NCBI GenBank assembly: GCA_016124845.1
Contig: WGMW01000035.1
Coordinates: forward strand, 1-61,825
From: Flavobacteriales bacterium
Lineage (GTDB): Bacteria; Bacteroidota; Bacteroidia; UBA10329
Direction of reading: 5' to 3'
Length of the DNA: 61,825 nucleotides
Position 1 is the stretch's first letter, and every line of letters starts with the position of its first letter. Both the position numbers and the translations under genes were made by a program. The notes under the pieces were generated by a model. The model was not told where the DNA came from. It searched no databases and saw nothing but the letters and a program-made list of their open reading frames with translations. Shown here piece after piece: positions 61,262-61,825 of this stretch.

Positions 61262-61385
61262 AGGGTGAATCAGTTGACCGGTGAATCAGTCGATTAGTAT
61301 TTGGTCGCCCGAAGATGCAAATTGTAGATGGAAAATTGATTTATGTCAATTGTTAATGTCTCATACGGGAATGGGAGAAAATCCC

Positions 61386-61399
61386 TCGCCTTCAGGCGA
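61386..61399 (+). other. IS200/IS605-type left-end hairpin
   Basis: TCGCC-TTCA-GGCGA sits 28 bases before the transposase start, in the region where IS200/IS605 elements carry the subterminal hairpin bound by TnpA. Confidence 0.6.
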
Positions 61400-61426
61400 A
61401 GACTTCAGTTCGACTAATTTAGCGAT

Positions 61427-61804
61427 GTGGAGAATCATCGCAGGACGCGTCACAGTGTCCATGACCTGAAATATCATATCGTATGGATTACGAGATACCG
61501 GAAGAAAGTGATGGTCGGAGATGTTGCTGTGCGGTGCAGGGAACTTCTGCGAACGATATGCAAGGCAAATGACGTGGAGGTCATCCGAGGGCACATCAGC
61601 CGGGACCATGTCCATATGTTCGTGTCGGTGCCGCCTCATCTGTCAGTGAGCAAGTTGGTTCAGATGCTTCAGGGGAAGAGTTCCCGTAAACCGCTGTCGG
61701 AATCGAAGATGCTGTCAAAGCAGTTCTGTGGCCGACATCTGTGGGGAAGGGGCTATTTTGTAGCGAGTTCGGGCAATGTGACCGATGAGGTGATCATGCA
61801 TTAA
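61427..61804 (+). pseudogene. tnpA: IS200/IS605 TnpA, stopped at the catalytic tyrosine codon
   Basis: 125 codons from a GTG start. The Y1 transposase fold is clear: DLKYHIVWITRYRKKV, the HUH pair His61 and His63 in DHVHMF and the C-terminal RGYFVASSGNVTDEVIMH. In TnpA the next residue is the catalytic Tyr (Y127 in IS608, in QYIENQ). Here codon 126 is TAA, and the downstream bases still read IENQDVE to the window edge. A TAT or TAC to TAA change has therefore removed the nucleophile exactly. The remainder lies outside the window. A sequencing error cannot be excluded. Confidence 0.85.
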
Positions 61805-61825
61805 ATTGAGAATCAGGATGTGGAG

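Follow-up and report, generated by a model that had tools for sequence, protein, structure and literature searches.

The stretch of DNA that we analyzed (61,825 nucleotides, referred to here as the window, and the entire contig C35 of an assembly of 4.36 Mb in 65 contigs) ends inside the transposase gene, tnpA, of an IS200-group insertion sequence that is complete when joined to contig C25; in this gene TAA stands in place of the codon for the catalytic tyrosine, Tyr126. We consider it most likely that this copy was inactivated by the Tyr126 to TAA change in the course of recent neutral decay, the catalytic position of the stop being a coincidence. The mechanism would require a single substitution in the tyrosine codon (TAT or TAC in relatives). 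The sequence, the alignment, the completeness of the element once the contigs are joined and the lack of this stop in the relatives sampled are directly shown; that the cell really carries the stop, that the change is recent and neutral, and that activity has been lost are inferences. The loss is judged recent because the tail encoded downstream of the TAA has kept its frame and resembles that of the family. The stop is carried by only one sequence, near the ends of two contigs, and the evidence for its neutrality and recency is therefore indirect. The coordinates of the features in the window are given in Table 1.

Table 1. Features of the IS200-group element within the window
Feature	Position	Strand	Evidence or comment
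TTAAT, putative target and left cleavage pentanucleotide flanking the element	61353..61357	+	Shared start in two solo LE-RE elements
Left end (LE) of the IS200-like element, with hairpin TCGCC-TTCA-GGCGA at 61386-61399	61358..61426	+	Matches other left ends
tnpA, IS200/IS605 transposase, TAA-ended at codon 126	61427..61804	+	Pfam and NCBIfam profiles, HUH motif, predicted core
TAA stop at the catalytic tyrosine codon	61802..61804	+	PDB and family alignments
In-frame tail IENQDVE, ending at the window end	61805..61825	+	Continues into contig C25

The tnpA frame opens with a GTG and runs for 125 codons before the TAA, and the bases that follow (ATT GAG AAT CAG GAT GTG GAG) remain in frame to the end of the window. 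The encoded protein matches the Pfam Y1_Tnp profile over its full length (positions 1-121 of 121; E value 2.8e-37), scores 137 bits against the NCBIfam model NF033573 for IS200/IS605 transposases (cut-off 55), and has its HUH motif as HVH at residues 61-63. When the protein is aligned with solved TnpA structures from the PDB, the stop falls in the column of the nucleophilic tyrosine; the pairing of this tyrosine with a glutamine four residues further along helix alphaD is absent from the protein, the tyrosine being TAA and the glutamine being encoded only after the stop. The observation in the earlier note that codon 126 is a stop exactly at the nucleophile, with IENQ following it, is thus borne out by the frame, by the structural alignment and by the relatives described below. 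Among the single substitutions that would create a nonsense codon in codons 1-126 of tnpA, 2 of 47 (4.3%, or about 1 in 23) lie at the tyrosine codon. We also considered an alternative code in which TAA is read as sense, and found nothing in the window to suggest it: all three stop codons serve as terminators among its long open reading frames, TAA in 7 of 35.

We compared this gene with 114 related loci obtained from scans of the same genome, its class, its phylum and viral sequences, a non-random sample, such that the counts given here are not rates. The column of the nucleophile holds a tyrosine codon (TAT or TAC) in 100 of these loci, which speaks against a TnpA subgroup with its nucleophile elsewhere, the circumstance that the earlier note had named as contrary to its reading. 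Three loci have cysteine in this column. A stop at the tyrosine codon, for which recurrence elsewhere had been proposed as a check, occurs in none of the 114. Earlier stops are found in 10 of the loci and are scattered along the protein (residues 8, 20, 43, 43, 47, 59, 71, 89 and 96, 106, 125); breakage of such IS copies is common and scattered. The nearest relatives found are about 73-76% identical at the protein level. The exact DNA spanning the stop was found in none of the viral contigs, with no phage match, and eight genomes of the same genus yielded no match at an E value of 1e-20. The window copy departs from its relatives at six of 48 near-invariant sites (Y4H, K23R, I52V, K82Q, W101C and the stop), most relatives having 0-3 such departures; a distant relative (L055) likewise has six, and some of these differences may reflect divergence of the lineage. 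Two loci in the sample can be mentioned individually. One, in another genome of the class (L119; G176:C1:893808-894227), has a TAG one codon before the tyrosine, and the other, a 67% relative with its tyrosine intact (L026; G098:C4:3776-4126, minus strand), has an in-frame TAG near the N terminus, just before the residues YDIKYH.

Contig C35 ends 21 bases past the TAA. Its last 53 bases also open contig C25, letter for letter, when the latter is reverse-complemented, and this sequence has no other occurrence in the genome. The TAA is present in both contig ends, which, given the 53-bp overlap, are not fully independent evidence for it. Joining the two contigs yields a complete IS200-group element of 569 bp, consisting of the TTAAT target, the left end, tnpA and the right end, with tnpA as its only gene (tnpB is absent). 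After the join the tail of tnpA runs on in C25 as DGQESEFRIDGE and then reaches its native stop; the frame as continued by the join reads IENQDVEDGQESEFRIDGE, a tail of the type seen in relatives L040 and L042. The right end, which lies in C25 and therefore outside the window, contains two strong hairpins (z -6.2, DNA fold), has the terminus GTAGTTTAAT, and closely resembles the right end of relative L035. The left end matches left ends on four other contigs of this genome (C3, C2, C54 and C57) and those of relatives L035, L036 and L073; its hairpin is recovered by the DNA fold, with a z of only -1.1 that is statistically weak. The joined element thus has the subterminal hairpins at both ends and the TTAAT on the left that are features of the IS200 group. 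We regard TTAAT as the putative target because the solo elements on C2 and C54 have sequence in common starting at the GTC that immediately follows TTAAT or TTGAT, and cleavage would be expected after the TTAAT; TTGAT is the target of ISDra2, in the same position (PMC2806898). To check the C35-C25 join, an empty site or a conserved gene order was sought in the same genus; the gene to the left and the TraB-like gene were adjacent in none of the relatives sampled.

The remainder of the genome holds further pieces of this type. A sister copy with TAT or TAC at the affected codon, suggested earlier as a means of verifying the change, was sought here and no near-identical one was found, the element being single-copy. 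The nearest TnpA in this genome (C3/C28, 67% identity) does have TAC in the tyrosine column, together with other damage (W20R and loss of the native stop). A 5' fragment of tnpA lies in C57, and two ends-only elements of 186 bp each, consisting of a left and a right end, occur at C2:20678-20863 (minus strand) and C54:71249-71434 (L031 and L032) in different flanking sequence; they are about 95% identical (nine mismatches counted in the alignment), start and finish at bases corresponding to those of the window element, and are preceded by TTAAT and TTGAT. A related TnpA acting in trans probably mobilized these PATE-like elements. Only five left-hairpin sites (with up to three mismatches) are present in the genome. 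A second IS200-like type, with the left end GGTCACAGAAAGAGTTAAAACTATGCACTTTAAGTGCATG, is found at the end of C47, the start of C34 and the end of C54 (L033, L034 and L032) and in C25 (L027), the last being a left-end-like piece about 380 bases past the right end of the window element. Contigs C47 and C34 have an identical 141-bp end in common, and therefore copies of this second type break the assembly. The picture is one of an IS family decaying in this genome.

The consequences of the stop for the protein can be predicted by analogy with IS608, in which helix alphaD is given to the active site of the partner subunit and bears both the nucleophile, Tyr127, and Gln131, a metal ligand that transposition requires (PMC6006769, PMC5934647). 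In a structural model of the 125 residues, the pLDDT exceeds 90 for the blocks covering residues 21-100 and is poor for residues 111-125, and alphaD is a five-residue stub. By this comparison the truncation removes the nucleophile, the third Mg2+ ligand (the glutamine at Tyr+4) and the greater part of the swapped helix. Such a protein should neither cleave single-stranded DNA nor rejoin it, and the element would then be immobile unless another TnpA acted on its ends. A truncated TnpA that still binds hairpins is not favoured, because the same glutamine and most of alphaD are lost. For the related E. coli protein TnpA-REP, two deletions at the C terminus are severely detrimental to cleavage and also to binding (PMC8266576). 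The earlier suggestion that the change abolishes only the chemistry and leaves the DNA-binding, dimer and HUH parts is in this respect too generous.

The principal alternative to decay is an error of sequencing or assembly, in which the true codon is TAT or TAC and a wrong base was called near a contig end within a mobile element. The stop does lie close to the end of C35, several IS200-type copies sit at contig ends in this genome, and the overlap between C35 and C25 is 53 bp as compared with 138 and 141 bp at two other breaks, which may reflect thin coverage. We nevertheless consider an error unlikely: the two contigs agree across all 53 bases, the genome has no close sister copy from which reads could have been mixed in, and other conserved residues, further from the contig end, are altered as well.

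Two further readings accept the stop as real and give the gene a continuing role. The earlier note had set neutral decay beside a tamed transposase, and of these decay gains support from the single complete copy, the unshared stop, the other changes and the broken kin, whereas the tamed transposase gains none. A truncated TnpA retained as a non-cutting hairpin binder would have an intact HUH core, predicted to fold, and possible binding sites in the two ends-only elements and the other left ends. The stop is private to one copy among the relatives sampled, however, no clade of proteins devoid of the tyrosine was seen, W101 and other conserved residues have changed, most of alphaD is gone (with the effect on binding described for TnpA-REP), and the proposed REP-like hairpins do not form a large family in this genome, the five left-hairpin matches being all that we found; we therefore regard such retention as very improbable. 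The more specific proposal, that the truncated protein is expressed and kept because, though unable to cleave, it binds IS200 hairpins and represses in trans the mobility of the remaining related elements, is more improbable again. Equally hard to credit is the view that the RNA rather than the protein matters, the tnpA transcript being a small RNA to which the stop is harmless. Its precedent is Salmonella IS200, where the 5' end of the tnpA transcript gives rise to a gene-regulating small RNA (PMC12594629); against it, Rfam gives no match above the gathering score, and the fold of the left end is weak (by DNA parameters).

The element can be placed among known systems. It shares with the IS200 group (TnpA structures 2ec2, 2f4f, 2xm3 and ISHp608 2a6m) the full Y1_Tnp profile, the HUH motif, the position of the Tyr-x(3)-Gln motif, the subterminal hairpins, the left-flank pentanucleotide and the absence of tnpB, and differs in that its tyrosine codon is a stop; it is a member of the IS200 group by descent, and its transposase is predicted to be inactive. 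The IS200/IS605 elements of Halanaerobium hydrogeniformans (PMC7290912) offer a parallel, with broken copies and ends-only (PATE-like) derivatives in one genome, although in the window the nonsense change falls on the nucleophile codon. The resemblance to TnpA-REP (RAYT), the domesticated Y1 transposase of REP sequences, extends to the HUH-Y1 core and to hairpin binding as a family trait; unlike those proteins, the window TnpA scores 24.9 bits against an NCBIfam RAYT cut-off of 80, has the Y---Q motif of the IS200 class (IENQ) rather than Y---NP (classes as in PMC6006769), and belongs to an element with IS ends of its own.

A truncated protein that did function would represent a naturally occurring Y1 transposase devoid of cleavage activity, but nothing here points to this. 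Taken alone the inactivated copy has little significance; it provides a clear case of IS200 decay, and an IS200-group element mapped together with its ends, its target and its ends-only derivatives.
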